A DNA stretch of 64,000 nt from assembly GCA_018296165.2 (NCBI GenBank), contig JACKQL020000001.1, positions 62,001 to 126,000 on the forward strand. Direction: 5' to 3'. Positions 7,835 to 57,408 of the stretch are shown piece by piece; position 1 is the first letter of the stretch; the number at the start of each line of letters is the position of its first letter. The translations under genes were made by a program, and so were the position numbers. The notes under the pieces were generated by a model that saw nothing but the letters and a program-made list of their open reading frames with translations, was not told where the DNA came from and did no database searches. The DNA comes from Termitomyces sp. T153. Lineage: Eukaryota > Basidiomycota > Agaricomycetes > Agaricales > Lyophyllaceae.

Positions 7835-7999
7835 ACTGGTTATCTGTTGCCCTTTTAAAAATCCTCAGACTCTATAGGAACCTCCTCCAATACATTGGCC
7901 ACTTCATCAGAATGGACAGCTATAGGTGCATATGGAGAGGGAGTTTCTGTAGAATCCCAGGCTGCAAGGAGTTGGATAAGCAGCTCTTCTTGCTCTAAT

Positions 8000-9156: not shown

Positions 9157-9273
9157 AGGAGGAGCACAGGGGGCACTAAGACACTGGTGAGGAAGAGACC
9201 TTTTGAGAAACCAAGTAGAAGCTCAGGTAATTGAAAAGGAGGCTCCCAAACCAAATCTAGAGACTTATTCTGC

Positions 9274-11990: not shown

Positions 11991-11999
11991 GCCTGGGGA

Positions 12000-12899
12000 T
12001 GAGCAGAGAGTGCCAGGGTGTGAGCAGCAGGTTGGTTAAAGGGGCCTTCAGCAGGGTTGAGGGACTTTAAGATATTTGATGTGGTGTTGAGTTCCTCTTG
12101 TTGGTAGGAAATGGGGGCCAGGGCTTCTGCTTTATCTTGGTGGGTTCCTCTTGTTGTATTTGAAAGGAGTGGGCCAAGTCCAATGGGTCCTCAAAGTATC
12201 AGAAGTTCAGGCTCATGTGGATTTTGTCAACTAGGGTGTAGAGCTTGTTCCAGAGGTTGGCATCAATTCCCAAAGTGCCTTAAGTGGTTTTGGGGAGGGT
12301 GCCCTGCTGGTAACATTTGTGGAAGTCAAGGAGTCAGTATGCCCAGACTTCTGGAGTTGCTGGAGCATCATGGTAACTCAAGCCAACAAGGAGAGCACAA
12401 GCACATCATGCAAAGCCCACAGGAGAGAGGCAGAGGGAGTGGAGGACTTTGTTGCACTGCTGAACATAGGCTTCAACTCATTGCTGTCTAGGAGAGAGAA
12501 GAACTTGAGTGGTGAATGAGAGTCAAGAAGGGAATAATTATCTGGCTGCTCTGGAGGAGCTGGGACTGCAGTGGGGATTGGATAGGCATAGTAGTGTGCT
12601 GGGAGGAGGTAGGCAGAGTTGGATGCAGCTGGGAGTGCTCCAGGGAATCCTCTAGGGTACATGTGGGGGTAGGCCCCATCAGCAGAGAATATTGGGGGGT
12701 AGTGCCAGCCTGGTAGTACTCTTTGACTGATGGAGGGGGCATAGAAGGCCTGATTTAGATCTGGGGTCTAGTGACAAGGAACATAGTGATCCATGGGCAG
12801 GCCTGGACAGAATGAGGCATAATGATTTTAAGGGACCAGCCTACTGTAGATGTTGGTTAGATAGCTGGTGGGGTTGAATGCAGAGTTGTATGCAGACAT
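12000..12899 (-). pseudogene. Gag-like remnant next to a family A primer-binding site
   Basis: A minus-strand frame starting at 12899 (MSAYNSAFNPTSY) encodes a Pro/Tyr/Ser-rich N-terminus typical of Ty3-type Gag leaders and continues, with many stops, toward the reverse transcriptase block at 11.99 kb. It begins 20 bp inside the PBS of the LTR at 12933. No zinc knuckle or protease motif was found in it, so the assignment as Gag rests on position and composition. Confidence 0.5.
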
Positions 12900-12919
12900 T
12901 GAGAATGGAGTAAGGGGGG

Positions 12920-12931
12920 AGTCTTGATATT
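12920..12931 (-). promoter_or_regulatory. Family A primer-binding site (self-priming type)
   Basis: The 12 nt AGTCTTGATATT on the plus strand lie one base from the LTR edge. On the element strand this is the reverse complement of the presumed first 12 nt of the family A transcript. It is preserved despite heavy decay around it. Confidence 0.75.
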
Positions 12932-12932
12932 A

Positions 12933-13500
12933 TGTCAGGTTCTGCTGACCATGGGGGCTCAGCTTAACTGGGCAATTGCTTACCAGGCAGATGTGATGTC
13001 CTGTGCTTATAACCCAGCACTCTGGGGTGGTCTGGACTTCAGATACTTGCAAGAATAAGTCAAGAGAAGTGGTCCAACAAGTCCAGAGTGGTCCAAGCAA
13101 GTCTAAGACCAGGTACAATAAGTGTTGGGTTTGGAGAGGTGTCAGGCACAAGTCTGTAGGTGAATGTATAGACTGTGGGGCAAGCAGAGGCTTTGCAAGT
13201 GATGGGAGTGGGGCCAGAGTTTGATGGAAGATCAATTAATGGTACTTGGTTTTGGGGCTAAGCATAGAGCAAGGTCCAGAATTAACTTATAAATATTTGA
13301 GAGTCATAATGTATGCACAGAGTTTGTAATGATGACATGCTGAGTTTGCTAGAAGATTGTCAGGGTTTTCCAGGGAAGTATTGAAGATATCCAGGGCAGG
13401 CACCATGGGTAAATGAGAGTTGTAGTGAGTCAGGAAGGAAACTCTGGGGAAGTGGAGTGGCTTGGAAAGAAATCTGAAGGGCTGGAAGTGGGTTGTGACA
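12933..13500 (-). mobile_element. Family A LTR, internally deleted and decayed
   Basis: It begins TGTCAGGTTCTGCTGACC beside the PBS and ends GGTTGTGACA beside a polypurine tract on the other side. At 568 bp it has about half the family length. CpGs are gone. With PBS on one flank and PPT on the other, it joins two internal regions, as the B LTR at 9274-9714 does. Confidence 0.78.
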
Positions 13501-13795
13501 TCATCCCCCCTTCAGTGTCAAGACCCTTGGGGCATGGGACATGAGTTGGGGATTGTTGGGGTGTGGAAATTAAAGTGCAAGCAATATTGATCAAACTGCA
13601 GCAGCAGCAGTGGCAGTATGGGGAATGAAGTTGAAGCAGGATTGTTATTCATCAAGAAGCCTCAAGAAATTAAAAAGGGTCAGGACATATCCTAGTGCTT
13701 TGCTAACTTTCCTCATGTCCTCCTCCACTTCTTCCTCAGCATTGCCATCTCCCACTCTTTCCCCTTCCAACAAGAATTGCATGAGTGTCTGAGAG
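13501..13795 (+). pseudogene. Family A internal end with relic of the antisense gene
   Basis: After the LTR come the polypurine tract region TCATCCCCCCTTCAGTGTC and a decayed copy of the leader seen at 20257-20467. At 13715 an ATG starts MSSSTSSSALPSP, in the position of MSSPSVPVVSP of the family A antisense gene. The frame stops within 30 residues. It shows that the antisense gene was already in the family when this old, CpG-depleted copy inserted. Confidence 0.65.
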
Positions 13796-14461
13796 GAGTA
13801 CAAATATTGGTAGGAGCAGTTTGATTGTCATTGGGATCAATGGAGGGTCAACTCAATGTATTATTGTTGTAGGTCTGGAAGCAAGTATTAGAAGTGTGAG
13901 GCAAATGGAGGCCATGCAAGTGATGGGAGCAGGGCCAGAGTTTGATGAGAGATCAATGGATTTTGATGGGTTTTGGAGGCAAGCAAATAGCAAGGTCCAG
14001 AGTTGGTTTATGAATGTTTGGGATCATAATTGTAAGCATGGAGTTTATAATAGGACTTGGTCACAATAAAAGAAATAGAGATGATCAAGATCAGACAGTG
14101 TTGAAGAAAGATTGAGACAAGAACAAAAATAGATTCAAGTGGAGATACAAAATGATAACAGGACAATAATGGAGATAGAGACAAGACAAGACCAGGAGAC
14201 TAAGATAAGACCAGGAGACTGAGAGAAGAGGAAACATAACACAAGACATAAAAACACAAGAGACAAACAATCAGAAACACATCAGGTAAGGCAATATCAA
14301 GACTAGAGTATGGGATGTTACTCTATGACTTATATACTAACTACTGGAACATCTCTGAAGATAGCAGGTCCAGCAGTGGGGCTTGTTAGGGTCATGCAGA
14401 GCCAACAGGTGTCAGTTGTAATTAGGGGGTAGGCTGCAATGATATACTGATGGAATCATAA
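13796..14461 (-). mobile_element. Family A LTR fragment, decayed
   Basis: It aligns with the middle and U3 part of family A LTRs, including GCAATATCAAGACTAGAGTA near 14290 and the TATA region TTATATACTAACTACTGG near 14330. It ends abruptly at about 14461, where family B gag sequence begins. Confidence 0.75.
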
Positions 14462-15350
14462 TGGGCAGTGGGGTGCTGTGTTCATCACAGCTCATGTTGC
14501 AGCTCCATCAGCTACTACTGCTCACATGCTACCTTGTACCAGGTTTCAACATACTTATTTTCTGGGTGCTCCTCAGCCATACTATTGATACAATCTATGA
14601 GAGAGGGGTGGAGTCATTGTGGAAGGTTAGGCAAAGCTGCAGACCATCAGGATATCCAGCCTGCTTGACTAAGGCACAGATCAAGTTGATGTACTCATCT
14701 AGAAACCACTTCCTTTGACCATACTAATTTTGGTCTTGAAGAAAAAGAGTTGCAGTTTTGGCAGGGTTGACAAGAAAGAACTTGGCTTGGAACTCCTTCT
14801 CAAACTCCATCCAGCCAGTGAAACTCTCTACTCCTCCATGGCATCAAAAGATGTGCAATGCATAGGTTGAAGCTTAGCCAGCCTTCATGTAAGAGAGAAC
14901 CCAGGCAATCCTCAGGGCATCAGAAGTGTATGCTTCACTTCTCAACTGAATATAAGTGATGCAGGATCAAAGGAAACATTCCTTGACCTTACAGTCCCCA
15001 TCAAATACACCAGAGAGTGCCAAATGAGGAAGTTTGGAGTGGGAGGCTAAAAATGCTGGGCTAAGTGTAGAAGAAAACCTTTCTACGGCTTCTAGGAGTT
15101 CAGAGAGAGGGCAAAGTGCATAGGGGAGGTGTTCTAGAAGGGCCTGGAGGGGGAGGGATACCACTTTAGTGGTTTGACATAGTCCAGTGATTTTGGCAGT
15201 GCAGGAAGTAAGAGAAGCTTGAGTAAGTTGGGCCTGTATCTCCAAGGACAGCAAACATCTCCAGGTATTGTCCTGGGGGCTTGAAGCATTAGGAGATTTG
15301 CTGGATGAGTTAGTTGGGTCATAGGAAGAGCACAGAGAATAGCAAGACAC
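14462..15350 (-). pseudogene. Family B gag remnant, third copy
   Basis: A minus-strand frame of 127 residues from 15350 contains NASSPQDNTWRCLLSLE and LTQASLTS, parallel to the gag N-termini at 9156 and 55528. Downstream, in broken frames, come SCITYIQ..., a WALSYMKAG-like block and EKEF...LDPAKTA-like residues of the retrotransposon gag domain. It is cut at 14461 by a family A LTR piece. Not functional. Confidence 0.83.
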
Positions 15351-15437
15351 CAGTAGAGGAGAGATTTTCTAAAAACCAAACAGAAAACTCAGGCAGTCAA
15401 AATAAAGCTCCCAGACTAAATCCAGAGACTTCTTCTG

Positions 15438-15971
15438 TTATAAGAGCAACCTCTGGAGGCTGTGGCTCAATCACACAACTAGCAGAAGGAGATTCAAAGT
15501 CTATTCAGCATCTACAAGAATTTCTAGAATTCTAGCTACTCACCTGGCAAATGGAGATCCAAATAGAACAAATCTAAGGATTTCCAATGCCAGTGGTTAG
15601 AAAACTTACTCTAGAGCTTCTAGAAAAAAACACTCAACAGCAGCCAAATCTGGAATCTGATTGAGAAACAGAAATCCATTGTAAATGGCCTTGATCTCCA
15701 GACTCCCAGCATGTAACCACATACAAATATAAATAAATGATATCCCTTGGTTGTAAGTACTTGTGACTAAAAAATGGGATGTTTGATAATGAACAGCAGG
15801 CTTGGAATAAAGAAAACAATTAGAGGGTCTAGTAAGAGGCAGTGTGGAAGGGGCAACACTTGTCTGAATTATGAACAGAGAACTGGTACAGCATAAGGGC
15901 TGAAATTAGGACCAAAAGAGAAGGGGGATAAAGGAAAACCATAAGGAGGGAAAATGGAAAGTTCCCTGCAA
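15438..15971 (-). mobile_element. Family B LTR, long subtype, decayed
   Basis: It aligns with 50176-50733: it shares the opening GAGCAACCTCTGGAGGCTG, the block CATCTACAAGAA, and the tail with ATGAACAGAGAACTGGTGCAG-like sequence. It lies upstream of the gag remnant in element sense, as a 5' LTR should, with a decayed self-priming site (AGAGACTTCTTCTG) beside it. Confidence 0.78.
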
Positions 15972-18627
15972 TACTACATTGTCCTTGGATATTCCCCAGC
16001 AGTTCCAACAAGAGCCAACAGGTATATTTTTCTTGAGGGAACTAAGTCATTGCACCAGATCAAATTCCTATTAAACACAATTAAGAGGATTGTTCTCAAG
16101 GGGGTAAATGGATAATGGTTATGGTCCCACCAGCATTTCTCATCATTAGCATTATACTTTATAAAATTAAAACAGCAGAAGCTTACCCTCTGGAGAGCTC
16201 AAATTTTTTATCATGGCAGGAACACACTGCAGATGCAACTTTCAAATCAGTCAGTCTCACTTTGTAAATGGACAATCAATAAGTGTTCAAACACACCAAC
16301 TGTACTAAGGAAAACAGAAGTATGTTTCTACTCACTGGTGAATATTGCACAGGACAAGCCCTGTCTTTATATAAGTTGACTGGAACATCCATCCACCACA
16401 TTATTTAGTATTTCATATGCCTCTGCAGAAGAGGATTGTTTCCAACTACTAGCTAATGTGTCTCTTTCAAGGTCAAACTATGTATACAAGAAACAAACTC
16501 TAGTTGAACAGGGTTATAAGTGTCAGTCCTTTGGTTTGATATTGTAAATGGATGATGAACATGCCATTGTTTGCACAAGTGACCATGAGAACAATTTCCA
16601 ACATATATGCACTATCCTCAAAGTCTTGGCAACAAGAGGGTTGATACCTCTCACCTAGTCCTCACTCAAGTGTTTCCATATATTGAAGATATCAAAACAA
16701 CATTCCAGCCACTTATTAGCTGATAAAGTTCTGAAAAGAATGTGGGAGAGTCAAGTGGCATTAACAGTGAAAGAGATGTGCTAAGAAAGCTGAGTACATG
16801 TTCTTCTAGAAAGAAGTCATTGATTTTGTCAATAAAGATAGAGTTGTGTGCAGTGCTAAACTTGTTGGCAAGGTTGTAAGATATAGAAATCATGACAGTA
16901 TTTGTAGTAAATAAAGTAATGGAACAAAAAAGAGTCAATAATGGAGAACTAGTCACCAGCAACAAAGGCAAGTCAGGAGGAATGGCTTGTAAAAGTCAAT
17001 AACCCAAATTTGAGCTTGATTCTACACCTGGAATGACAGTCAGCATGCTGGTTGCTAGGGTGTTGCATAGTAAGTAAATGAAATTGTATGTAGTAACACC
17101 AAAACCATGCCAATAATACCAAGAAAAGAAATATGATTAGTGACCTTGCTAGGAGGTCATTAGAGGTTGCTAGGCTTCAAAAAAAGAAAGCTGTCCAATG
17201 GGTTGAGAGCTTAGACCACACGTGACAAAGTGATGTTGCATTCACTGCATTCAAAGTGGCTCTACACCTTGTTCAACCAAAGATCCCCTTGAAACTCCTT
17301 ATCAAGTCAGAACATATGTATTTCCTGACCACTCACAAAAAGGACACTTATCCTGAATATTTTGAGCCTCACAACCTTCTGGTCAGGCTGCAGATGGCAG
17401 TCCTTGCCCTTATAAAAGCACTTTGGAATCTCCTGGGTAATTTCTGCTCCTTTGGATGCCAGCAAGCTGATTGTCAAAATGGTCCTTGAATTCATGCTTG
17501 GAGAAGGATCAAGATTGGTCTATTGTTTGAATAAATGAATGAATCTTTGATTTATTTACTTCAAGACCTATTTTACACATGAACAATTGTGTCCTAGGTC
17601 CCACAGTTTGAAGGGGAGTGGTAATTATGGACACATCCAATAGGTACGTCAGCCTGACACCTTTTCAAGTGTGCCAGTTATGCCTCATAGCCACTTTACT
17701 ACAATTTGATCCTTCAGAGTTCATACTACTTCCCACCTGTAAATCCCCTCCCCTTCTGCAACTAATGTGCCATCCCAATCTCTAAACTCAGCTATGCTTG
17801 GCACAGCTTGGTTGGAGTTGATTGGTGTAGGGCTTATTAACCCAATTGGCATGCTCATGCCTTCCTCTAGTCAACCCACAACCAAGGGCAGTCATGACTC
17901 TACCCTTCCCCATGCCCAGATGCTACTTTCAGAAGGTCAATCAATTTGGAACCTGCAACAGTATGAGCCAGCTAATGACCCCAACAGCCATGCCAACTCA
18001 TCTGATGGACCACACACTACATTGGCAGCCTGATCAATCTATATTGACAATCCCTAAGGACATGATGGTGCCAGCTGAGCCACCATGCCCTTGATCCCAT
18101 GTCTGGAGTCCTTCCCTCTACAATCATCTTCATTTGACCTCCTGGAGCCAATGAAGACCATGTCCAAATCTTGATGGACATGGGTTTTTTGTGGCCTGCT
18201 GTGCTCCACAAATGTACCAACAACAGCCTCAATATAGCCACCAAAATTTTCCTTCTACAGCCATTTTCACTGCCTCTAAATCCAGATCCAAAGCCTGAGG
18301 TGGAACACCTAGTGGCTGATCCTCCACTTAAACCAACCACTTGGAGACTTGGGCAGTGAATAAGAAACTAGTGATTTTCAACCTTCAGAGACTTCTCAGC
18401 AGGGAAGAATGCAGAGGAATGAAATGAATGGCAGGACTTGGATGAAGCATGGAAGTCTTTGCATGCTGGATTCAGCTGGCAAGTGCTGCTTCTGATTGAT
18501 GAATTTCTTTCTCCATTAGATTGTGTAGACAATGTCAAAGCATTCTCTCCCTTAGTCAATGCCAAAATAACTAGAAATAGCCAGGCTATGCTATATTTAC
18601 TTACATCTTTTACTTCTTTGTCTCAGG
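15972..18627. other. Degenerate sequence without a recognisable gene
   Basis: CpG-poor sequence with many short frames and no domain I can name. A block at 16522-16606 is clearly similar to 43731-43816 (see findings). Small minus-strand frames at 16666-16971, 17307-17495 and 18368-18565 and plus-strand frames at 17767-18094 have no motif. It is probably old transposon debris. Confidence 0.45.
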
Positions 18628-18628
18628 C

Positions 18629-18823
18629 CTATATACACAGGAACCAAATGGTCTTCCTTTCAAATAGCATCCATTTTAACATTTCCCTTGCATCAATAGC
18701 TGCATGGTATAGTAGGTTAAGCACATCCACATACATTTTGTTCATGAATCCACTTCTCATTTCCACCAGTCTTTTAGAGTTGGAGCATTCTAAGAGAACA
18801 TGTTCAGAACTTTCCACTTGCAT
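18629..18823 (-). pseudogene. Possible non-LTR retroelement tail
   Basis: A 64-residue frame contains VESSEHVLLECSNSKRLVEM, similar in kind to the E-x-x-x-H-x-L-L-E-C block near the end of many LINE-type polyproteins. Only this short motif supports it. It lies between unrecognised sequence and the copia RNase H tail, and could equally be chance or a copia 3' flank. Confidence 0.2.
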
Positions 18824-18927
18824 ACCTACATAGTAGTCATAGTCTCCATCTATAATCCTGAATTGCAGATTATCTGTGCTCTGGCCATCTCAGTTTTTCT
18901 CCTGCTAAGTGTTAGAAAATGGCATAA

Positions 18928-19083
18928 CTATTGAAGACCTGGACAAGAACATAGGTACTGAAAGGCAGAGATGGGAAGGGCTTTTGTGAAGATGTTGGCT
19001 ACATTTCCTTTTGAGGGAACTAAATGTAGAATTCATTCATGAGACTGAACTCACTCACATAGGAAATGATACTTGATGATGAC
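18928..19083 (-). pseudogene. Ty1/copia RNase H, C-terminal end
   Basis: The minus-strand frame reads VIIKYHFLCE, then VPSKGNVANIFTKALP and ISAFQYL, ending at a stop at 18928. This is the end of copia RNase H (usually H-I-D-x-R-Y-H-F and A-D-I-x-T-K-A-L-P). The frame begins at the ATGAC duplication of the family A element and continues on the far side of that element at 36690, where the preceding residues DPLLHA-stop-VKH are found. The interruption is therefore a clean insertion. Confidence 0.88.
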
Positions 19084-20467: not shown

Positions 20468-20951
20468 ATGTCTTCCCCCAGCGTTCCAGTAGTTTCTCCT
20501 GCCGATTTAGACGAGGTGGTGGTGTACGACAGTGGGGGTGAGGAGTTCGAGCGTTGGCGCCAGGGTAGCGTCAGGGACCGGAGTCGTAAGTGTTGTCAAC
20601 TTTTCTTTTCGGGATGGTTGACAGGGTTCCTGTAGAATCGTCCGTGGTAGTAGTAGTGGATTTTCCAGGGGTCCCGAAACGGACCAAGTTTCATCCCGCG
20701 TTGCCAAAGGGGAAGGGGGCGTCCTCAGCGATGGTTTGGGGGAAGCGTCGAGCCTCCCCGCCCTCGGGGGCAGGACCCAGCAAGAGGCCGTGTGGGCGCG
20801 AGTTGTCGGTGGGGCCTCCGGAGTCCTCCCTCTTTTCTCCTGTCCCAGGCGTCCCCTTGGAACGGTTGTTGAGTCCCCCCATGCCGATCCCTTCGATCAC
20901 GGAGGTCTTTCTTCGCAAGCATGTGGAGGCCTTGACGACGTCGTTGGCAGT
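20468..20951 (+). pseudogene. Family A antisense gene, 5' part (split by insertion)
   Basis: This gene of unknown function lies opposite to element sense. Exon 1 is 20468-20585 (MSSPSVPVVSPADLDEVVVY...), followed by an intron of 50 nt (20586-20635, GTAAGT...GTAG) and exon 2 from 20636. The AG at 20624 is not conserved in the copy at 63 kb, while the AG at 20635 is, which decides the acceptor. Exon 2 encodes a Val-run, a basic stretch (VPKRTKFHPALPKGKG, GKRRASPP) and the start of a coiled coil. The family C element interrupts exon 2 at 20951; the frame resumes at 32277 (...LTTSLAV / REGEL...). The leader of about 200 bp from the LTR is conserved with 63093-63291, so the promoter may lie in the LTR. 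Confidence 0.8.
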
Positions 20952-22015
20952 TGATGTGCTCCTATGCCGCCTAGTGCCGTGCAGGAAACCTAACACTTGT
21001 CACTAGATAGGGTAGCTGGCAGTAGGAAGTTAATAGTTGAGGGCGAGTCAGTAACCGTCCCAGAGAACTAGAGCAAAAGTGGTGGCGTGGAAGTGAAGTC
21101 GAAAAGAATCACTACTGCTAACGATAGTCGCAGCGAAACTGAAATGGTGGCAGGGGGAATAAAGGAGAGAGACAGCGATAAGAGTAAAATTGAGATTGAA
21201 GGACGAACGTAAACTTGTTGCTAGCCGCAATTGCTAGCGTCACTAAGTTGAAATAACGTTTATAGGCACCTGTAGTCGGTACCACACTAAGTCGAGGTCG
21301 AAGTTGAAGAGGTTTGTCGCTAAACCAAGGTCGAAGACGAGATGAGGGAAAGAGATGAGGTAAATGAAACCTTTAAGCTGGTAGCTTATAGATAGGGGAG
21401 TGATACAATGGTGATTCAATGGTAAAATTTGATGGGGTGATGTCTATGTACAGGCAGTATTTATACGTTTTCAAAGTATAGTAAGGGAAGGTAGGTAATT
21501 GAGCGCCCCTAGCGGCGGTGTCTGCCACTCTGTTTAGGTTGCGTGCCAGGCGTCAGCCCGTAACTAAGTAAAAAGTCATAGGTGAAGCCTTGGCGACGAC
21601 TAATTGCTAATAAGAACCAAAAAGAGAACAAGTCCGATGTCAATACCTGAAGTATGAACACCGTTCGGGGATGTCGGTAAGCTCGACAAGGGGAATGATA
21701 GTAACAAAAATACGCTTCTGGTAATATGTCCATATATAGTAAAGGAACACCGTCTTGTCGCCAGGATCGCTAAGGTTGCTAATAATCGTCGCCAAGGGGG
21801 TCTAGGCCTTGATGGTCCAGGCCCAAGTTCCAGGCTTCGCGTGATGTTCCCCGTGATCGATAAGTCTCGTGGTCGCTAGAGTCTTGTGCTTCGGTCCAAT
21901 CCTCGGGCTAAGTCCCATGCGCTGAGTGTTGTGACTTGTGTCAAATTTGAAGTAGTCAGCTGCCGCTAAGTCCAAACTGCCGAAAAAGGTGCTCAGCGAT
22001 AACTGGGGCTCATCA
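20952..22015 (-). mobile_element. 3' LTR, family C (1,064 bp)
   Basis: It has the same length as the partner at 31209-32272, with four substitutions by eye (near 21112, 21167, 21430 and 21991). It is followed inward by the polypurine tract. It also lies immediately upstream of the plus-strand spliced gene and could supply its promoter. Confidence 0.95.
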
Positions 22016-22027
22016 TCCTCCCCCATA
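22016..22027 (-). promoter_or_regulatory. Polypurine tract, family C
   Basis: TCCTCCCCCATA on the plus strand gives the purine run TATGGGGGAGGA on the element strand, directly before the 3' LTR. This fixes element orientation as minus. Confidence 0.8.
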
Positions 22028-22188
22028 CTGAAATATTGACTGTCCTCAGTCAACCCAAAAGTCACGGGCTTGATTGCTTGGTCCGTGCGCCCAAGGGCTT
22101 CAAATAAAAGTGGTTGGCGGTATCGCTTGAACTTCATCATCCCCCTTCCTTACCATCTAATCTCTTCTAGCATCTCAATCTTATCGCT

Positions 22189-24191
22189 ATGTCCGATCTT
22201 GCCTCCCAATTTGAGAAGATCACCATGGCCCACGCCTTCCTTGATCGGGTCGACAGGTTGCTCGCGGTGGCCCGTGCATCGTTGGCGAAGGATCCTCGCT
22301 TGGCGGTCACCGCCATCTTTCAGACGTGGCTCCAGTGGTTCAAGACCTCGGGGAGCGGAGTCGAGTGGCCAGAGTTGGCGACTGTCGAGAAGGAGTGTCA
22401 CCAGTTATATGAGAAGTACAAGGGGGAAGAATGGGTTCGCCCATTCGATGTTCACTTCGTAAGTTCCTTTTCTTCCTTTTAGCGCCAACTTCTAATGCGA
22501 TCGCTAGGCGCCAATTGACCCTTCGCTAGAGTTCCTTATGGACGATCTCATGGCAGGAATGACGGTAAGTGCCCTGGCAGTCGCTAGTGCTAGCGACCCC
22601 GCTAAGGTACGTTAGCTCTTTGAAGACTTGTCACCGAATGACCAGTTCCTCTTCCAGCACCCGGTAGGTGCGTTAGCGGTGGCGAGGGGGGAGGGACAGA
22701 GCGAGGGTCATAGGAATGAAGAGGCGGCGAATCGTGGGGACATTCAAGAGGCGGGCCCCTCAACTCCCAAGGCTGCAGCTGGCGGCGTCGCTAGGGGGTT
22801 GGCGACGTCGCCAAAATTGGCGACAACCCCGAAGAGCAAAGGGAAGGGGAAAGGAAAGGCAAAGGCACAAGATGAGGAGGACGAGGATATTGAGGTGAGT
22901 CGTTTTCTTTCCTTTCGCTGATTCTTGGCGACGACCGCTAACCTTTCCTGCAGGATCATGTTGAAGAATCGTTTACCAACAAGCGCTTGGCAATGCTCCT
23001 TTGATGGCGAAGGACGACGACGGTGGTGAATACGGGGCTGGGAGCAGGAGTGAAGTTGGACAAGGCCAAGGGCAAGGTAACAGTGTCGCTAGAGAAGCGG
23101 CAAGAGTATAAGTACACGCAAGTAGCAGTGAGGACTTAGCGGTTCTTTTTCTCTTTTTGTTGCTAACGCTTTCTTTTAGTGCAACAATTGCTGGGCAGAT
23201 AACGACCCAGAAGGCTGCTAGTACCCCACGGGGGTCCAGCCTTGCTATCGTTGCGATAGCACTAGGAAGAGCTGCTCGCACAGCAGCCTGTCATCGAGGA
23301 GCACAGGCAGCAAATTCGCTAAGAGGATAGCAATCAAGGCGGTGTTGGTAAGGAGTGTGAGGGCCTTCGTGGAGAGGCAGAGGGAATTGGCGAGGAGAGG
23401 GGAGCCGATCAAGGTCAAGCGTTCGAGCTTGACCTTGCCGATGTCGCAGGAGGAGGGCTTGGTTGGAGGTAGTGGAGGCGCTAGGGTGAAGAGTAGGGAG
23501 ATGGTGGAGAGCGACGAGGACGACGACGACAATGGCAGTGACGGCGACACGCCCCGAGCGCTGAAACGAGCCGCAAGCCCATCATCGGTTGCTAGCGCTA
23601 AGCGACCTCGGATGGTCGCCAGTGAGGAGGGAAGGGAGGACGTGGAGATGAGGGAGACGACTCCCTTGGCGACGGTCGCCGAGGTGGAGGCGAGTGACAT
23701 GGAGATCAAGGGTGAGGAGGAAGTGGAGGCCGTACCCATCGCTACTGAGGAGGAAGAACGAGCTGAAGAGGTTGAGGTCGTACGACAAGTAAGTTATTTT
23801 CTCCCGCTAGCTACCTGATCGCTAACCGCTTTGCTAGGGAACATGGAGTGACACACCGTTGCGTCAGGTGGGCGACAACAAGCTGGAGTGGCTGGGCGAG
23901 GACCTCGGATGGCCGACGCCGCTAACGTCGGCGGCGTCGCTACTGGACTTCGACGAGAGGGTGGTGGGAGTGGAACGACGGTTCCGAAGGGAGCTGGAGG
24001 CGGCGAGGGAGGAGTTGTTAGCGGCACGGGCTCGCTACATGGTTGCTAGGCGGATGCTGGCGACTCTGGCGGGATATCAACACGACTGCCAGGCCTTCCT
24101 GGCCTGGCAGGAGGAGAACAACATCGGTGAGGGGGATTGGGAGGAGACGGAGGCGATGGAGGTTCCTGACAACGCTGACCTCGATGCTTAG
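22189..24191 (+). pseudogene. Six-exon antisense gene with Zn2Cys6-like cluster, family C
   Basis: This gene of unknown function is encoded opposite to gag-pol. Exons: 22189-22458, 22508-22564, 22616-22894, 22954-23121, 23180-23788, 23838-24191. The five introns (49, 51, 59, 58, 49 nt) all start GT, end AG and are phase 0, giving about 578 codons. Exon 1 starts MSDLASQFEKITMAHAFL. Exon 3 ends in a Lys/Gly-rich basic stretch and an acidic DEEDEDIE. Exon 5 opens with a cysteine cluster C-x2-C-x8-C-x8-C-x2-C-x6-C, like a fungal Zn2Cys6 domain, then basic and acidic (DEDDDDN) tracts. Exon 6 is a charged helix (FRRELEAAREELLAARARY). Two stops break this copy: TGA at 23002 (a CGA losing its CpG would give it) and TAG at 23219 (Trp expected). 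A pyrimidine-rich leader precedes the ATG. A nuclear, nucleic-acid-binding role is inference. Confidence 0.82.
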
Positions 24192-24635
24192 CGACAGTCG
24201 CCTCCTGTATATAAATTTTATATTTTTGTTAGTAATTTGGACCTAGCTTGGCCCCCTTAAGGGGCTCCAAAATGTATAGTATCTTTGGCGAGCGATCAGA
24301 AAGTGAAACGAAACAGAAGAAAGAAAGCAAAAATCAATTGGGCATACTAGCGACTGTCGCCTAATGCTAGCGACATCTTGAAGGCAAACGCTCAGTAGAT
24401 CATCATGGCGAATTACCCCTAGAGGCGTGCCGAGCGCTGGCGACAGAATAGCCTAGCGCAGCATCGAAACAAGACAATAGTAAAGTAAAGTGTCTGTGAA
24501 AGGCTTTTTTTTTTTTTTTTTTTAACTGTGTCAAAAGTAAAAAGTAACGAAACGAAAAGGACTTAGGTTTTGTAAAGTAATTGTTGACGGTTTTTCTGGG
24601 TAGTAGAGATGAGAGCGGTAAGAAACGAAGCAGAG
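24192..24635. other. Convergent intergenic region with poly(T) tract
   Basis: The antisense gene and pol end tail to tail here. AT-rich sequence TATATAAATTTTATAT at 24209 probably serves the antisense gene's 3' end; a similar motif follows the family A antisense gene at 32981. A run of 19 T lies at 24505-24523 (A-rich on the pol strand). CCCCTTAAGGGG at 24253-24264 is a perfect palindrome. Confidence 0.6.
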
Positions 24636-27600
24636 TTAAGATTTGTCGCTAAGGCCTAGCAAAAGGTAGTTTTCTTCTTCACTGGCATTTTTGCCAGTGT
24701 CATCGTCGTCAACAAGTTCGGTTTGTTCCAGTTCTTGGAGACGCGAAGTGTCGATGTCAAAAGTGTCGCTAGGCACGGTTATGTGTTCTCTAGCGAGATA
24801 GGGGATTAAGTGGAAGGCAGCAACAGGGTGATGTAGAACTGAGCCATCTAGTTCTCAAAGAATGTAAGCTCCTCCATGTTTGCGAGAGATTACCACAAGT
24901 GGGCCTAGGTATCGCGGCTTCATTTTCTTGTTATGCGTTACTTCGATTCTCGTATTCCTCATTAGTATGAGGTCGCCTGTTTTGAAGTTGTAATCGCAAA
25001 TCGTAGCGGCGTGATCTTTCTCAAAGCAAATGGTGGCCAGGCGACGGGCGCTAAGCACTTGGCTATGCAGACGGTCGAGATCTTCTTGGCGGCGCTGAAG
25101 GTCAATCGCTCGGCGGGCTATGAGATCGGTGGTTGATAATAACGAGTTTGGCAGCGGTTGCAAATATGTCGCTTCAACTATGTCAGCAGGCAGGAGAGGG
25201 TGGGTACCAGTCGTCACGTAGTAAGGGGAGCAACCCATTCGCTTGCGCACTGTAACACGTTCTGACCAAAAGACCGAGTAAGTAGCCGTACTCCACCTAA
25301 ACTGATCGCCATCGACAGCTTTGAAAAGGGCTTGGCAAACGTCGAAGTGAGGCCACTCGACTATTCCATTAGCGCGCTTATTATAACCAGAGATCCGGAT
25401 ATGGTGTAAGTTATACTTCTTCGCCAAATAGGTAACCGCCTTTAGGATCGGGGGTCCATTGTCAGTCACGATTTCGCTAAGTGCTCCCCAACAACAAATG
25501 ACGTCCTCGTATAGCCACTTGGCGATAGCTTTGGTGTTTTCTCGGCTGAGCATGCGAAATTCCGGGTAATGAGTTAGCGAACAACATCCTTGGATGATGT
25601 ACTTGAACTTATTGGAGGGCGGCATGAACATGGTATCGATGTATATCTTGCTGAACAAAGGCGCCGGGGTAGCGACAGTTGGCGGAATAAGCACTTTAGT
25701 TGTCTGGTGTATCTGACAGAGATGGCAGGTCCTAAGGTACCACATGATGTTGGCGCTAACTTGGGGCCACCAGAATCGTTCTAGAAGAGCAGAGCGAGTA
25801 GCGAAGAAGCCTCTGTGTCCCAAGTCGTCGTGCATCGCCTTCAAGACCCATAAGCGACTGGCGAGATGGCAGGTCCTAAGGTACCACATGATGTCGGCGC
25901 TAACTTGGGGCCACCAGAATCGTTCTAGAAGAGCAGAGCGAGTAGCGAAGAAGCCTCTGTGTCCCAAGTCGTCATGCATCGCCTTCAAGACCCGTAAGCG
26001 ACTGGCAATAGGGACGAACACCTTGTGAGCACCGTCTCGACTTCTTCGCCAAAGTTTGCCTCCCGTAACAAAAAACATAGATGCATAGCGAACAAAAGTG
26101 GCATAATCTTTGTCGCTAAAGCCTTTGGGTCGGATTAGATCGTGAAGCCATTTCTCAACTAAGAGTACATGGGCATCGTTGGTGGTAGCTTTGGCACTGC
26201 GGGGTACATCGCTATAAGTAGTGGTGCCATCGTCTCGGAGGGGGGTTATATCGTTGCTGGTCTCTAATCGTGGAGCAGTGTCGGTGTCGCTGGCGAAAGT
26301 TGCTAAAGTAGGTGAACAGCCGAGATCGGCCACAGGGGATAAGCAACGTGCGGCCATTGAGAGATGGCGAAGGAGCGGCAGCGGTAACTGGACCTGGTGG
26401 ATGAACCCATGCAAACGATCAATCCAATCCTCATAGACAGAGTTGTCGCTATCGTCGACAGGGGGATCATCAGGCTGTGGCAGGCGCCACGACAGACCAT
26501 CCGGGCCATGGAAAGTTCCCTTGACGTGCACCAGCTCGAAATGGAACATCAGAATCGCCATAATCCAGCGGTTCATGCTAGCGGAAGGCTGAATGTTGGA
26601 GTTCTGAAGCATACCCTTAATGTAGCGAGCGTCTACTTTGATGATGAGGTTCCTAACGCCAATTAGGTACATCCGTAAAGCTTGTAGCGCTCGATAAAGG
26701 CCGTAAAGCTCCAACTTAGGCTGACTGAATCGTGCTTCTCTGTCGTTTAGCGTAATTGACCCGAAACGATTGTAGCGGCACTCCTTGCGATTATTGCTAG
26801 CACACTGGCAAAGGTAATATCCGACTGCTATATATGACATATTGACCGCTAAGATGACGGGGTCAGGCGATTCATAGTCAATAGGAACAAGGGGCTTAGC
26901 GTCTTGTAAGGCCTTCACGAGGTCACGTTGAGCATTAATCTGATCGGGACCAAACTCAAAAGGGACGCCAACGTGAGTAAGTTTCGTCAGGTTATGGGCT
27001 CGATGGGCGAAGTTTTTGACAAAGATCCTTAGCACCCCAACGGTACCTAAAAAGGCGCGGACTTCCGATAGTGACTTGCAAGGACCCCATCGCTCGATTA
27101 GCGCTAGGCGACTTTCGTCGGGGATTCGACCGCTAGGAGTACAAACGTGACCGAGAATCTTGAATGTCAGGGCGCAAAGGACAAGTTTGTGACCGGAAAA
27201 AGTGCCACCGCAATATTTCATCCGCTGAAGGATCCTGTTAAGAAGTTCAAAGAACTCCCAGAGCGCTAGGCGGATGTTTGGATTAGCGGGATGCTTAGCG
27301 GGTTTACTGTTAACGATCTTCCAGTCCTTGGGTCCTTTAGCGCCAACGTCATTGATAAAGCTGAGCACGTTGTGGGGTATCTCTGGCTGCAGAATAAAGG
27401 TAATGTCGTCATGAAATATAGGCACAGAGTTGGTCCACCCCATTGGCAAGGTTACTAAGCAAAGAGCGCCAAACGGAGTCTGGAATGTCGTTAAGTCACA
27501 TGATGCTGGGTCGATAAGTCGTTCGTCGTAGCCAACGTAGAGGTCGAGAGTGGCACCACAAATGCGTCCAGCGAAAGATTCAGCGACGTGATCTGGAAAA

Positions 27601-28583
27601 GGTGGTACTCCAGAATGGCAAATGGTGACACGGTTGAGCGGCTCTAGACTGTGTACAATCCTGAGCTTACCGTTTTTCTTGAGAACGCAAAACCATTGCG
27701 AGTGATAAGCGGAATTCGAGGGTTCAGAGACGCCAGCGCTGATCTTGTCGCGAATAATTTCGCATACTTCCTTTTCTAGTCCTGGGGGTATGGGGCGATT
27801 GTGCTGAACCCAAGGTACGTGCGGAATTGTTGGTATGCGTACTGGCGGGAAGAAGTCGGGGCGCAAACTTCCTCGTTCGGAATCTTCCCAAGCAAAGGCT
27901 TTTTCTTGCTTGGCAACCATGTCGACCAATACATTGATTTCGTCGCTAGTGAGGAACCCAGTGTTGTGGTCTCTAACCAATTTCGCTTGTCGCTCACTGG
28001 TGAATCGCTTTGTCGGGACAAAAGGTGGCAGGTTTGGGTTAAGCAGAGGAATGGTCGCTAGTGGATCGCCTATAACTTGACGCTTGATTCAAAAGTCTTC
28101 GCTAACGTGGCTAGCGACCAGTTTGGTTTTCATGACGACGGATTTATACTTCTTCTTGACCTGTACTCCTTTTCACTTAGGAGGTTCGTTAGCGACATAC
28201 TGAGCGGGGAATGAGATGTTAACATAGGTGGGGGTAGTGTCCGTAACACATGTATCAAAGGGCAAAGTCTGTCCAAGAATCAAGGGATTAGAGGTATCAG
28301 TAGAAACGAGATAAGAACGAGGTGGAAGGGACAAATCAGAAATGTCGCTAGCCGTAGCGTAAAGGTATGCTAGCGCGGGATTAGTCTGTGTGTTAGAATC
28401 GGTAAGCAAAATGTCTTGGTCCAAATCACAAGAAGCTATACACGTCGCTAGACCAGTTGAATGGTCATAGCTGATAACGATCATTAGGTTGCTATCTTCT
28501 TCATTGCCGGAGGCAATGAAAGCAGCGGGGTGCCTCGGTTTTGAAGCGAACATTTTGACGGTTGTTTCTCTTGGTTTTGCCAC
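24636..28583 (-). pseudogene. Family C Pol: reverse transcriptase, RNase H, integrase
   Basis: One frame of about 1,315 codons encodes the polymerase polyprotein. In-frame TGA codons at 28173, 28089 and 24855 interrupt it; the longest open piece is 24855-27980 (1,041 residues). Reverse transcriptase shows LDLYVGYDERL with its first Asp and, at 27348-27353, FIND where the catalytic box should be F-I-D-D. RNase H shows AVNMSYIAVG (first Asp lost at 26841), ELYGLYRAL and KVDARYI. Integrase has an HHCC region duplicated in tandem (25719-26006), then IYIDTMF, IVTDNGPP and the NKRANGIVEW block holding the glutamate. It overlaps the Gag-protease frame by 83 nt in the +1 frame, as in Ty3-like +1 frameshifting. 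The element cannot move by itself with these changes. Confidence 0.93.
25719..26006 (-). repeat. In-frame 144 bp tandem duplication in integrase
   Basis: Two 144 bp units (25719-25862 and 25863-26006) encode 48 residues each, from ASRL(R/W)VLKAMHDDLGHRG to LRTCHL. They cover the histidines and first cysteine of the integrase zinc-binding domain. Only the unit at 25719-25862 continues into the second cysteine (CHLCQ). The units differ at three positions, each a CpG to TpG or CpA change. Confidence 0.95.
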
Positions 28584-31134
28584 GTGGAAAGGTAGGGATA
28601 GTGCGCCGGAGGCCAGTATTGGGGTCCGTGATTGTTATAGTTGTTTCAATGTTGCTAATTGTATTAACCGTACTTCGGGTTAATACGTCGAACGGGCGAC
28701 CGAGTAGGATGTCGTAAGCGGGAGACCGTAAAACGTGGATTTGAAGATAGACCGTCACGTCGCCAATCGTGCATGGTACGTTTCTAGCTAGTCCCAGTGA
28801 TCGATCCATGGTACCGTTGGCGCTCTGCATGTTTAGCACGATGTTGGGGTCATAGGATAAGCCAATGTCGCTAGCAATTTCGGCAGACATCGAAATAATC
28901 TGAGAACCGCTGTTGTGAATGCATTCAACTTCCTCTTTATTGTCGATCAGCATCATGACGGTACGAAGTGACTGAGATTCCTTAGCGACAGTGAGTACCA
29001 CAGGCTCTTCTCCGGGGGGTAGCAAATCAATATAGGCCTCGACAGGGTCGACTGAAGCAAATGGTGCCTTGTCCGTGGTAAGTCCTTTAGCGGTATCAGC
29101 GTTGGACCCAAGCGAAAACTGGGGTTCTTCGATAGCGAACGTCAGCAAAATCTCTTCAAAAATGTTGCTGGAGTCCTGTACTGTATTAGCACTAGCGCCA
29201 ACCGATTGTTTGGGCGTAACTGCTGTCCTAAACTGATTCCTGATGTCCTGGGATACAGAGCAAAGTTTGCCAACCGATATCGTAACCTGGGTGCGTAAGA
29301 CTCGTTTGAAAACCGCTTTGGATTGCTCGATGTCGTAGATGGGTGGCATAGTTCGATATGCGCCGTCATTAGCTTTGTCGGGAGCAGCGAAATTCTGGTT
29401 AGCGGGTGGGGCGTAGTGACTAGGGATGCCAGAAAATGGATGAATAGGAGGCCGAGCAACAGGTTCCTTAGCGACGGTACGTTCAGGTGCTTTGCCTTTG
29501 TCAGCAGGCTTAGCGGCAGGAACTGGAGTGGAATCAGAAGGGGTGGAGGTTGCCGGAGGGTCACTGGTCGAGGGTGTTGCCTTTGAAGCATCACTTGCTG
29601 GTTGATAAGTCGCGCGGGGGACTTGTACGCCGTCAAATTTTTCGCCGTTTCGCCAGAGTGCAAATAGTTCGCGTTCCAAAGCCTCGATCCGTTCTTCCTT
29701 GCTTAGCGCTCGGCCTGTGGCGACGTCCTGTTGCATTACCTCGTGTATTAGCGACTGCTGCATAGCCGCCTGCTCCGGGTCGGGGTTAGCGTTGGAAGAC
29801 AGTCTGCCTGTAACGGTTTGTCCTGGATTAAGCCGGTGCCATTCCTCAATGCGTTCGATGTATAGTCGCTTGCCAAAATAGTTGGGAATCATGGTGCCAG
29901 ATGGTAAAATGATCTTGCCTTCGGCGTTACGACGGATCTTACCCTGTCGGATCATTTGCTCAAGCTTGATACAAGTGCCTCGGACCATAGTGTGACCCAT
30001 TTCCCCGCAGAAGTGGCAAGTGCTGTTAGCGAACTGTTGGTGAGGTTGGGCGTTACCACTGGTCAAAAGGGCTTCCAAACGTTCCAAGGCGCTGACGATT
30101 GCGGTAGTGGTCGCTAATTCCAATGCTTCTTGCTTAGGTGCAGGCGAAGGGACGGTGGGCGGGTTAGCGATGGGCGATGACGAATGAATGCCGGTGGTGC
30201 CATTGCTAGTCTTAGTCGTAGAAGTGTCTGTTCCTTTTAAAACCCACTTAGCGCCTTTGAAGACTTGGTCAACATCGTAAGGGTCCTCAGGATGGTGATC
30301 GGGAAGGGTGATTTCGAGGCGGCGGACGACTTTAGACCATAGCAATGTGGGGATACCTTGTTGGAACAAGCGACGTTCCTCGTTATGATATAGCTTGCCG
30401 TTAGCGAGTAACCATCTAGCAATACGTTGGAAGTCCTGGTAGTAGTCAGAGAACCTTCCCAAAGTCGCTAAGCCGCTGTTGAAAGTCTGGTTAACTAGTT
30501 GTTCCAGATCGCCAAGATTATAACGAGTGCTAGCGTCAGCGCCAGGGTATAACCTAAGCACTGCCGCTTTCCATTCCTGGTAAGTGTAGGGTCAAGGAGC
30601 GTCATTGCCGATAATAATATTGTTGCCAAATTCAGGTAAGTGAAGCCAAGTTTCTGCCGTGTCATAGGAAACGTATTGAGATGCGTATTCTTTCTTTTGT
30701 GTGTTGTCAGCGATACCGCAATCAGCGAAGAGGTATTCCAGTTCTTTGAAGTATTGGGGGAGTTCCCTAGGGCGACTCTCATCCCACTTAGGTGCAGTAG
30801 TGTCATTGCGAGGCGGCATTCTAGCGCGCCGAGCAACAGGGTCATTGTTCATGTTAACAATTGTCGGATTTAGCGGAGGACGGGGGATAGTTGGCAATAC
30901 GGGAATAGAGTGAGCTTCGGGGAAGAATATAGAGTCGGTTGGAGTTAAAGGTGAAAGCAGCTCGTCGAGAAAACTTTCAATGAGAGCGCCTGGGAAGTCG
31001 GCAAGGATTTCGCTAACGTTGTGAAGGTTTTTAGTGGTTTTGAGTTCGTCGGCAAGGGGTCGAGGACGGGCTGCTGGCAAAGAATGCTGGGGGGTTGAAA
31101 GGGAAGACTGGGGTGGTTCAAAAGGGTTTTTCAA
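28501..31134 (-). pseudogene. Family C Gag-protease
   Basis: The frame begins at 31134 (MKNPFEPPQSSLS) and ends at 28501, with one internal TGA at 30592 where Trp is expected (..NDAP-stop-PYTYQEW). Gag features: an N-terminal Pro-rich part, a capsid-like helical region (YFKELEYLFADCG, then QEWKAAVLRLYPGAD), and a zinc knuckle CHFCGEMGHTMVRGTC at about 29980-30027, in which the last spacing is six residues instead of the usual four. A Pro/Ala/Ser linker leads to the protease region near 28.9 kb, whose active site reads HNSGSQ at 28912 instead of H-D-S-G. SPAYDILLGRPF is the usual C-terminal protease block. The presumed shift into Pol lies within 28501-28583. Confidence 0.92.
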
Positions 31135-31188
31135 GTGACGTTTCGCGTGAGCTCTTGTTTCTGGCAGAATGGTTAACTTCTAAACACC

Positions 31189-31208
31189 CCTCGCGGTGGG
31201 CTCCAAAA
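31189..31208 (-). promoter_or_regulatory. Primer-binding site candidate, family C
   Basis: On the element strand the LTR is followed by TTT and then TGGAGCCCACCGCG, which starts with the TGG expected to pair with a tRNA CCA end. I cannot name the tRNA. Unlike families A and B there is no match to the element's own LTR transcript start. Confidence 0.5.
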
Positions 31209-32272
31209 TGATGTGCTCCTATGCCGCCTAGTGCCGTGCAGGAAACCTAACACTTGTCACTAGATAGGGTAGCTGGCAGTAGGAAGTTAATAGTTGAGGG
31301 CGAGTCAGTAACCGTCCCAGAGAACTAGAGCAAAAGTGGTGGCGTGGAAGTGAAGTCGAAAAGAATCACTACTGCTAACAATAGTCGCAGCGAAACTGAA
31401 ATGGTGGCAGGGGGAATAAAGGAGAGAGACAGCGGTAAGAGTAAAATTGAGATTGAAGGACGAACGTAAACTTGTTGCTAGCCGCAATTGCTAGCGTCAC
31501 TAAGTTGAAATAACGTTTATAGGCACCTGTAGTCGGTACCACACTAAGTCGAGGTCGAAGTTGAAGAGGTTTGTCGCTAAACCAAGGTCGAAGACGAGAT
31601 GAGGGAAAGAGATGAGGTAAATGAAACCTTTAAGCTGGTAGCTTATAGATAGGGGAGTGATACAATGGTGATTCAATGGTAAAATTCGATGGGGTGATGT
31701 CTATGTACAGGCAGTATTTATACGTTTTCAAAGTATAGTAAGGGAAGGTAGGTAATTGAGCGCCCCTAGCGGCGGTGTCTGCCACTCTGTTTAGGTTGCG
31801 TGCCAGGCGTCAGCCCGTAACTAAGTAAAAAGTCATAGGTGAAGCCTTGGCGACGACTAATTGCTAATAAGAACCAAAAAGAGAACAAGTCCGATGTCAA
31901 TACCTGAAGTATGAACACCGTTCGGGGATGTCGGTAAGCTCGACAAGGGGAATGATAGTAACAAAAATACGCTTCTGGTAATATGTCCATATATAGTAAA
32001 GGAACACCGTCTTGTCGCCAGGATCGCTAAGGTTGCTAATAATCGTCGCCAAGGGGGTCTAGGCCTTGATGGTCCAGGCCCAAGTTCCAGGCTTCGCGTG
32101 ATGTTCCCCGTGATCGATAAGTCTCGTGGTCGCTAGAGTCTTGTGCTTCGGTCCAATCCTCGGGCTAAGTCCCATGCGCTGAGTGTTGTGACTTGTGTCA
32201 AATTTGAAGTAGTCAGCTGCCGCTAAGTCCAAACTGCCAAAAAAGGTGCTCAGCGATAACTGGGGCTCATCA
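31209..32272 (-). mobile_element. 5' LTR, family C (1,064 bp)
   Basis: It runs TGATGTGCTCC...CTCATCA on the plus strand, followed by the second CAGT. It is the promoter-bearing copy in element sense for Gag-Pol. Confidence 0.95.
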
Positions 32273-32276
32273 CAGT

Positions 32277-32923
32277 ACGGGAGGGTGAGCTCCAATGGGC
32301 GAGGGAGGATCGTGACGCGGCGCGGACGGATAAGGAAGCGATGGAGCGGGAGAGGAACACTTCGGTGCACGTGGTGACGGAGCAAGCGTTAGAGGTGCGG
32401 GGTTTGTGGAAGCGTTTGGCGCAGATGGAGGGGCAGCCCATGGGGGAAGTGGAGGGGCGGGGACGAGTTCCAGAGGGGGATGCGTTGTGGGTGGAGCTGG
32501 AGGCGGCGAGGCAGAGGGAGGATTGGTTGGCCAACGAGGCCACCTCGGGTCGCGTGGGGATCCTTCATGAGTTGTCTCCCGTTCCTCCGTTCGTTATTGA
32601 CGGTTCATTTTCTGGGTTTAGGCTGGGTGTGGGAGCATTGGGTCCTCTTGGATGGTGCCTCCGCAGCGTTCGCGTTGATTCAGGACAGGTTGACGCAGGG
32701 GTCCGCAGTCCAACCTCCAGAGTTGCAGCAGGGGATGGCGCGATTGGAGAGGTTGTTGGCAGGGCATCGGCAGCGCAATGCGGTGGCCCCGGGGTCGTGG
32801 TGGGAGGTGGCGGTCAACGCGGGGGAGGCATTGCCAGGGTTGGCGGAGATCTTAGCGGTGGTGCGGGCCCAGATGGAGGTCGACCTGGGGGTTGGGTTGC
32901 TGGGGGGTCCAGGGAGGGAGTGA
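32277..32923 (+). pseudogene. Family A antisense gene, 3' part
   Basis: The frame of exon 2 resumes after the family C insertion with REGELQWAREDRDAAR and continues as a charged coiled coil (MERERNTSVHVV, GLWKRLAQMEGQ, WVELEAARQRED). It then changes frame; the downstream frame to a stop at 32921-32923 reads HWVLLDGASAAFALIQDRL, MARLERLLAGHRQRN, and WWEVAVNAGEALPGLAEI. The shift is explained by an intron ending TTTAG at 32621; the only start giving the right phase is the weak GTCGCG at 32549, so that splice site may be damaged or wrongly placed. Function is unknown; no catalytic domain is seen. Confidence 0.7.
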
Positions 32924-53375: not shown

Positions 53376-53439
53376 ACAATGGTTTTGTCTGGAAACTCTG
53401 GGTTCAGAGCACTGATGGATTCTCCTTTGCATTCATCTT

Positions 53440-55643: not shown

Positions 55644-55645
55644 GC

Positions 55646-57400: not shown

Positions 57401-57408
57401 ACCCCTGA

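Follow-up and report, generated by a model that had tools for sequence, protein, structure and literature searches.

The window analysed here, a stretch of 64,000 nucleotides from Termitomyces sp. T153, carries between positions 20952 and 32272 one Ty3 retrotransposon, here named family C, on the minus strand (Table 1). Its two LTRs are 1064 bp long each, 99.6% identical and bounded by TGATG...CATCA, the 4-bp target duplication CAGT stands on both flanks, and the empty insertion site is present in the same window, at 63772-63775. Two LTRs with a short target duplication are typical of Ty3 elements (Metaviridae), as is the order protease, RT-RNase H, then integrase, which family C follows: RT_RNaseH precedes Integrase_H2C2 among the profile matches of its pol (RVT_1 itself being absent from these matches at E<=0.1), and gag-asp_proteas is matched below the cut-off in the window copy and at the cut-off in copy L015. 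The pol open frame runs for 1077 codons in the window copy and for 1284 codons in 9 of the 20 long copies; a 144-bp tandem duplication (98%) lies in the integrase part of the window copy, at 25719-26006.

Table 1. Features of the family C element in the window (positions of the window unless a locus is given) and of a copy with a deleted gene
Feature	Position	Strand	Basis
3' LTR	20952..22015	-	99.6% match to 31209-32272 over 1064 bp
Probable promoter/leader of antisense gene	22016..22188	+	AATAAAAG-like box, CT-rich stretch
Exon 1, helical N-terminal domain	22189..22458	+	dN/dS 0.03; AlphaFold pLDDT 82
Intron 1	22459..22507	+	GT-AG in 36/40 copies
Exon 2	22508..22564	+	57 nt in 40/40 copies
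Intron 2, palindrome GTCGCTAGTGCTAGCGAC at 22580-22597	22565..22615	+	GT-AG 40/40, pattern search
Exon 3, basic tract then acidic tract	22616..22894	+	
Intron 3	22895..22953	+	GT-AG in 39/40 copies
Exon 4, in-frame stop in window copy	22954..23127	+	
Intron 4, abuts first cysteine codon	23128..23179	+	GT-AG in 39/39 assessable copies
Exon 5, cysteine cluster 23180-23275, then helix, acidic tracts	23180..23788	+	One in-frame stop (window copy)
Intron 5	23789..23837	+	GT-AG in 39/39 assessable copies
Exon 6, charged C-terminal part, stop codon	23838..24191	+	dN/dS 0.09
pol (RT, RNase H, integrase)	24855..28088	-	RT_RNaseH, Integrase_H2C2
gag with protease, as open in window copy	28501..30591	-	gag-asp_proteas match
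5' LTR	31209..32272	-	CAGT flanks, empty site 63772-63775
Dispersed GTCGCYAR-type sites	20952..31208	both	LTR, gag, pol, introns, exons
Deleted-gene family C copy	L054, L055 (G000:C5:362300-363440)		pol and sequence comparison

Family C has inserted into a further Ty3 element, related to L052 (a second family described below), and interrupts the antisense gene of that element. Matches to the L052-type antisense gene in tblastn flank family C at 20713-20946, 32266-32571 and 32600-32881, and the part with the cysteine cluster is absent among the matched stretches of this interrupted gene (20713-20951, 32266-32881). The CpG observed/expected ratio is 0.01-0.10 at window positions 1-19080 and 52001-61867 and 1.01 in family C, the extreme depletion around the element being the result of strong CpG-directed mutation of older sequence. 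The LTRs of the window copy are as similar as given above despite stops in its antisense gene, a shortened pol and a lower gene CpG (148 in the antisense gene, versus 162-192 in intact copies); this copy was perhaps mutated beforehand and then mobilised in trans. The sequence TTTTGGAGCC (minus strand) adjoins the 5' LTR at 31199-31208, on the primer-binding-site side, and recurs at 24261-24272, in the interval from the antisense gene to pol, next to a CCCCTTAAGGGG palindrome; most of the family C copies displayed show this recurrence too.

The antisense gene and its predicted product

Between pol and the 3' LTR, on the plus strand, lies the six-exon gene that a first-pass annotation, made from the sequence of the window, had reported inside this Ty3 element; its ATG is at 22189, 174 nt from the 3' LTR, and its stop codon at 24189-24191. 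The exons of 270, 57, 279, 174, 609 and 354 nt are all divisible by 3, and the five introns of 49, 51, 59, 52 and 49 nt are GT-AG and in phase 0 throughout, in agreement with that annotation (which gave 49-59 nt). The spliced length is 1743 nt, or 581 codons with the stop included, so that the 578 or so codons first given hold as an approximation rather than as an exact figure. Exons 4 and 5 of the window copy each contain an in-frame stop, so this copy of the gene is broken. The opposite (element) strand has, within the gene, a single frame of at least 150 codons, one of 182 codons.

About 85 nt upstream of the ATG, in a region that also has a CT-rich leader, stands a AATAAAAG-like box, which reads AATAACAG in many young copies and AGTAAAAG in L029 and is visible in 31 of the 33 copies fetched from the genome, L035 and L037 being offset in that display. 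Together with an AT-rich stretch 3' of the stop codon, this looks like a putative independent promoter and end of the antisense transcription unit. Intron 2 is less variable than the other introns, being 51 nt long (in frame) in 39 of the 40 copies compared, and its palindrome has the form GTCGCTAG-YR-CTAGCGAC; this intron may serve regulation or be used optionally as an exon.

The predicted protein of about 580 residues has a basic tract, acidic tracts and a charged C-terminal part. Exon 5 opens with six cysteines spaced C-x2-C-x8-C-x8-C-x2-C-x6-C, exactly as the first-pass annotation had spaced them. These cysteines are invariant in the eight aligned exon-5 copies; among the six deep copies, four have them and two are out of frame there. 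AlphaFold models the exon 1 domain as four helices (pLDDT 82) and the cysteine region poorly (pLDDT 59), with a helix after the cysteines. The exon 1 fold gave no significant match in PDB (best E 1.3) or BFVD (best E 1.2); the best PDB row is an MIT domain, not interpretable at E 1.3. Pfam lists no family at E<=10 for the whole protein, and the 91-aa cysteine-cluster region, submitted separately, has no Zn_clus match; NCBIfam likewise gave no match for the protein, and a sequence search of PDB was without usable match. The spacing in Zn2Cys6 proteins (PF00172) is C-x2-C-x6-C-x(n)-C-x2-C-x6-C, and membership of this family was rejected for the antisense protein, its first spacing being x8 rather than x6 and a profile match being absent; the description 'Zn2Cys6-like' given at first is therefore apt as to resemblance and wrong if taken as membership. 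A bZIP domain, which defines HBZ of HTLV-1, is likewise without a Pfam match in the antisense protein.

Another young Ty3 family with an antisense gene is found in the same genome (L052, and L053 at G000:C136:104100-111000). It is a chromovirus with a chromodomain, and its pol is about 25% identical to that of family C. The antisense gene, again located 3' of pol, encodes 548 aa in a two-exon model of one copy, and its six cysteines are spaced C-x2-C-x6-C-x15-C-x2-C-x6-C, which approaches the Zn_clus spacing and gives a Zn_clus match in Pfam at E 0.0073, below the cut-off. As is the case for intron 4 of family C, a predicted 49-nt intron abuts the first cysteine codon. The last 323 residues have at least 125 matching stretches in the genome (124 of 2254 candidates scored), many of them uninterrupted. 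The two antisense proteins give no significant BLAST alignment with one another, and what would speak for a common descent of the two genes is limited to their architecture and one predicted intron position.

Copies, selection and presence beside pol

A DNA search of the 72.4-Mb genome gave at least 41 matches to the gene at no fewer than 40 places (40 of 256 candidates were scored, and one place was split in two). Of the 39 places outside the window 33 were fetched; the other six are the split place and all but two of the seven 86% copies. The spliced frame is uninterrupted in 15 of the resulting 34 copies (the window copy included), L040 being ambiguous at its last base. A protein search gave at least 173 matches (75 of 752 candidates scored), and among the matches listed are relatives of the antisense protein at 51-75% protein identity; six deep copies chosen from this search make up, with the 34 others, a set of 40.

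All six deep copies are decayed; their exon plan is preserved, as are nearly all of their splice sites. A deletion in L044 removes the 3' end of exon 3 together with some of intron 3, and one in L045 the 3' end of exon 4 together with some of intron 4; L045 is moreover unalignable after the middle of exon 5. The numbers of copies in which GT and AG are both present are given for each intron in Table 1, L045 being not assessable for the last two introns. Exon lengths are multiples of 3 in 40, 40, 39, 39, 38 and 38 of the 40 copies for exons 1 to 6, and the introns range over 48-57, 51-52, 30-67, 48-54 and 43-50 nt (L045 excluded from the last two). Precise intron loss was seen in none of the 40 copies compared, which is to be expected if the RNA intermediate carries the complement of the introns and bears out the earlier suggestion that a gene in antisense keeps them.

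Selection was measured as dN/dS (Nei-Gojobori) in 13 intact copies versus the subfamily copy L029, with the exclusion of L030, whose exon and intron lengths are the same as those of L029. Between the subfamilies the antisense gene has a dN/dS of 0.14-0.15, which amounts to the purifying selection in the antisense frame that the first-pass annotation had proposed to look for and shows that the protein itself matters. For L015 versus L029 the values by exon, from 1 to 6, are 0.03, 0.09, 0.29, 0.13, 0.20 and 0.09, and over the whole gene that frame has 0.15 versus 1.36, 1.40, 1.46 and 1.77 in four other frames; the fifth, which is complementary and has its third positions in common with the gene frame, has 0.27. 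In pol, dN/dS is 0.062-0.070 for three copies versus L048 (the pol of L029's own copy), and the closer pair L015/L010 has 0.17 in gag, 0.16 in pol and 0.24 in the antisense gene. That the antisense gene is real is close to certain. The idea of a chance open frame opposite other signals is refuted by the conservation of splice sites and frame and by dN/dS, and we leave it practically no probability.

Since the gene copies had been collected by means of the gene itself, a cross-check was made from pol, whose search of the genome, in which 103 of 1822 candidates were scored, gave matches at a minimum of 103 places. Thirty of these places are at least 92% identical, and for 29 of them the gene matches listed include one no more than 5 kb away. 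The exception, C5:364297, has a pol frame of 1283 codons and an internally deleted antisense gene: LTR and leader are present, and the first part of exon 1 is joined directly to sequence within exon 6, most of the gene being absent. At 77-88% identity, at least 18 of 73 pol places have a gene match within 5 kb among the matches listed, and for two of the other 55 (C187 and C162) the palindrome of intron 2 occurs at a distance of about 2.3 kb. Starting from the gene, antisense pol lies alongside two of the three deep copies checked, with none within 2.4 kb of the third. Of the 20 long copies, 12 have an intact antisense frame, 9 an intact pol and 7 both. Copies lacking the gene, or its neutral decay beside a conserved gag-pol, had been named in the first-pass annotation as what would speak against its reading; the outcome, one deletion among 30 close pol places, leaves that reading standing.

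A captured host gene travelling as a passenger, useful to the host or to nobody, would account for the introns and for a zinc-cluster-like motif, both of which resemble those of a host gene, and for the loss of most of the gene from one close copy. We nevertheless hold it to be very improbable, as the gene is kept at all close pol places except that one, has relatives at the protein identities given above, six deep ones among them keeping the exon plan though decayed, is under selection across subfamilies and stands beside antisense pol in two of the three deep copies checked. The word 'cargo' used at first is too weak for a gene kept in this manner: judged from the sequences, it is a selected, lineage-wide accessory gene of this Ty3 lineage. 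It serves the element, since it persists under selection together with pol.

The deletion at C5:364297 means that the gene is not needed in cis, and suggests that its product is either supplied in trans or dispensable. A role in copy-number control, in which antisense transcript or protein would keep the activity of the element down (much as HBZ represses Tax-driven transcription) or double-stranded RNA formed with gag-pol RNA feeds silencing, would be compatible with the full pol frame retained by this gene-less copy; position and splicing of the gene recall HBZ as it appears in the available text of PMC1459196, and the double-stranded RNA idea has been discussed for plant elements (PMC7264820, in the part available). 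A pure RNA effect, however, needs no conserved frame of the kind indicated by a dN/dS of 0.14-0.15, and we judge copy-number control to be distinctly unlikely.

It seems probable instead that the antisense gene is an accessory gene of the Ty3 lineage encoding a spliced, trans-acting nuclear DNA-binding regulator. A promoter of the gene's own, adjoining the 3' LTR on the inner side, would drive its transcription, and the host would splice the transcript; the introns of the gene would persist because, as retroelement biology implies, the genomic RNA of the element carries only their complement. Cysteine cluster, basic and acidic tracts and helices would suit a nuclear DNA-binding regulator, a role to which both this architecture and the second family point, and the product would act in trans on the whole of family C.

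The GTCGCYAR array

Family C is rich in a short word, GTCGCYAR, which occurs 37 times in the window element; CGCTAA is found there 47 times versus 6.5 expected, and GTCGCTA 27 times versus 2.1 expected. In the window element CGCTAR sites occur in LTR, gag, pol, introns and every exon except the first; the gap before exon 1 has none either. Counts of k-mers elsewhere in the window make an unfair control, these stretches being CpG-poor (o/e 0.01-0.66), and better controls are provided by synonymous shuffles, by the count of the reversed word and by the CpG-normal L052. When protein and codon usage are held fixed, CGCTAR numbers 28 in pol versus a shuffle mean of 6.2, 21 versus 4.7 in the gag part and 11 versus 2.2 in the antisense CDS, and in each of the three the observed number was reached by none of 2000 shuffles; the excess of CGCYAR is similar. 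Genome-wide there are 2881 GTCGCTAR versus 1887 for the reversed word, and the paired form GTCGCTAR...YTAGCGAC is found at 43 places versus 1, 42 of these 43 being the 18-bp palindrome of intron 2. L052 (positions 1-5501; CpG o/e 1.10, 61% GC) has in its 5.5 kb 0 GTCGCYAR, 2 CGCTAR and 19 CGCYAR.

In L015, GTCGCYAR sites lie on both strands (24 and 20), and CGCTAR occurs in every reading phase of pol. This spread over both strands and all frames makes DNA, not RNA, the likely substrate; an origin of the motif in codon bias or in an RNA signal was rejected on the same grounds.

The sites also tend to stay in place between subfamilies. In gene and pol together, 39 of the 53 CGCTAR sites of L015 recur in place in the L029/L048 copy, versus 473 of 1027 other CGNNNN words (Fisher p=1e-4). 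For CGCYAR in pol, retention from L015 to L048 is 37 of 43 versus 313 of 585 controls (phase-matched expectation 21.4; p=2e-5), and in the opposite direction it is weaker, at 37 of 56 versus 313 of 598 (27.3 expected; p=0.051). Motif sites are thus retained above controls, clearly in one direction and at the borderline in the other. The gene stretch of the five oldest copies has 4-13 CpG versus 162-192 in the 15 intact copies, and the old copy L044 contains 48 sites in decayed form versus a mean of 16.5 in Markov resampling; the presence of decayed sites in old, nearly CpG-free copies indicates that the motif array is itself old. Across 15 old copies, the retention of motif CpG does not differ significantly from that of other CpG (odds ratio 1.25, p=0.054, with cells that are not independent).

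Tentatively, the antisense product may recognise these scattered GTCGCYAR sites and in this way mark the element's own DNA. Such marking would most likely maintain expression of the element despite the heavy CpG mutation of repeats in this genome, in a VANC-like anti-silencing role in which the protein would bind the motif and remove methylation. What links protein to motif is their co-occurrence alone, and there is a second antisense-gene family without the motif. This last point, like the density of the motif in gag and pol, would equally suit a gene that acts for the element by some other route while integrase or a host factor binds the motif. No further accessory DNA-binding candidate was recognised in the element, though, and sites so evenly divided between strands fit a binder of double-stranded DNA, not an RNA signal; we regard another binder as rather unlikely.

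Recognition of the motif by the antisense product would, in its fullest form, make family C a self-marking retrotransposon, in which an intron-bearing antisense zinc-cluster protein and its own recognition word GTCGCYAR, placed at dozens of positions, protect all copies of the family, gene-less ones included, antisense zinc-cluster regulators being moreover recurrent in the Ty3 elements of this fungal lineage. All of this taken together we consider somewhat doubtful. Family C illustrates how a retroelement can take a multi-intron gene through an RNA intermediate, by carrying it in antisense, the orientation in which passage through RNA does not remove its introns. For the question of what antisense genes of Ty3 elements do, it supplies a selected gene with a measurable dN/dS, and the antisense protein with GTCGCYAR makes a testable candidate protein-DNA pair. 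The presence of a second family with the same plan in the same genome leads us to conjecture that such genes may hide among the hypothetical and zinc-cluster proteins of fungal annotations.

Comparison with known systems

Antisense genes between pol and the 3' LTR (aORF-3R) are known from plant elements, namely gene23 of maize Grande, rice RIRE2, Silene Retand (with TRP28) and Phaseolus PvRetro13, according to the available parts of PMC7264820 and PMC11963269; the antisense frames of plant Ty3 elements of the Grande and RIRE type, to which the first-pass annotation had referred, are thus documented (PMC7264820). In family C too, most copies have a coding gene that lies on the strand opposite gag-pol, in the interval from pol to the 3' LTR, and this gene resembles the aORF-3R of these sources in position, orientation, presence in most copies and putative nuclear or DNA-binding product; for Grande gene23 an own promoter has been reported as well (PMC7264820, in the text available). 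The gene of family C differs from them in having five conserved introns and a cysteine cluster in place of TRP28 or SMC domains. The word 'intron' is absent from the available text of PMC7264820 and PMC11963269.

Within fungi, the brtn gene of Boty (Botrytis cinerea, Sclerotinia) is an antisense gene in a Gypsy/Ty3 element (PMC7264820, PMC8365987) and resembles that of family C in lying antisense within a fungal element of this group, the comparison being with its description in the accessible parts of these citing papers. A fungal Ty3 element with an antisense gene is thus already on record, which qualifies the claim of novelty in the first-pass annotation; what sets family C apart is the multi-intron, cysteine-cluster type, as a literature search of titles and beginnings of abstracts, with few subscription papers, turned up no fungal LTR element with an antisense zinc-cluster gene of several introns.

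HBZ of HTLV-1 and the other deltaretroviral antisense genes are antisense and spliced (PMC1459196, PMC8622228, in the parts available), and HBZ is nuclear (PMC11963269, likewise in part). The gene of family C shares with HBZ its antisense orientation, its splicing being predicted from conserved sites. HBZ transcripts start in the 3' LTR, whereas the ATG of the family C gene is 174 nt inside, with five introns and no bZIP domain in the product. With Zn(2)-Cys(6) proteins (PF00172) the protein of family C has in common six cysteines in a CxxC...CxxC arrangement, and it departs from them in the x8 of its first spacing and in the lack of a Zn_clus match.

The nearest precedent for the putative protein-motif pair of family C is VANC of the Arabidopsis VANDAL elements, an element-encoded protein with a short motif that has accumulated in its own element (PMC5735166, in the text available to us). 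A short motif has accumulated specifically in family C as well, without the single-orientation arrays of VANC21. As far as that text goes, VANC motifs are mainly non-coding and often form tandem repeats in one orientation (PMC5735166), whereas the sites of family C are dispersed, occur in both orientations and extend into coding sequence.
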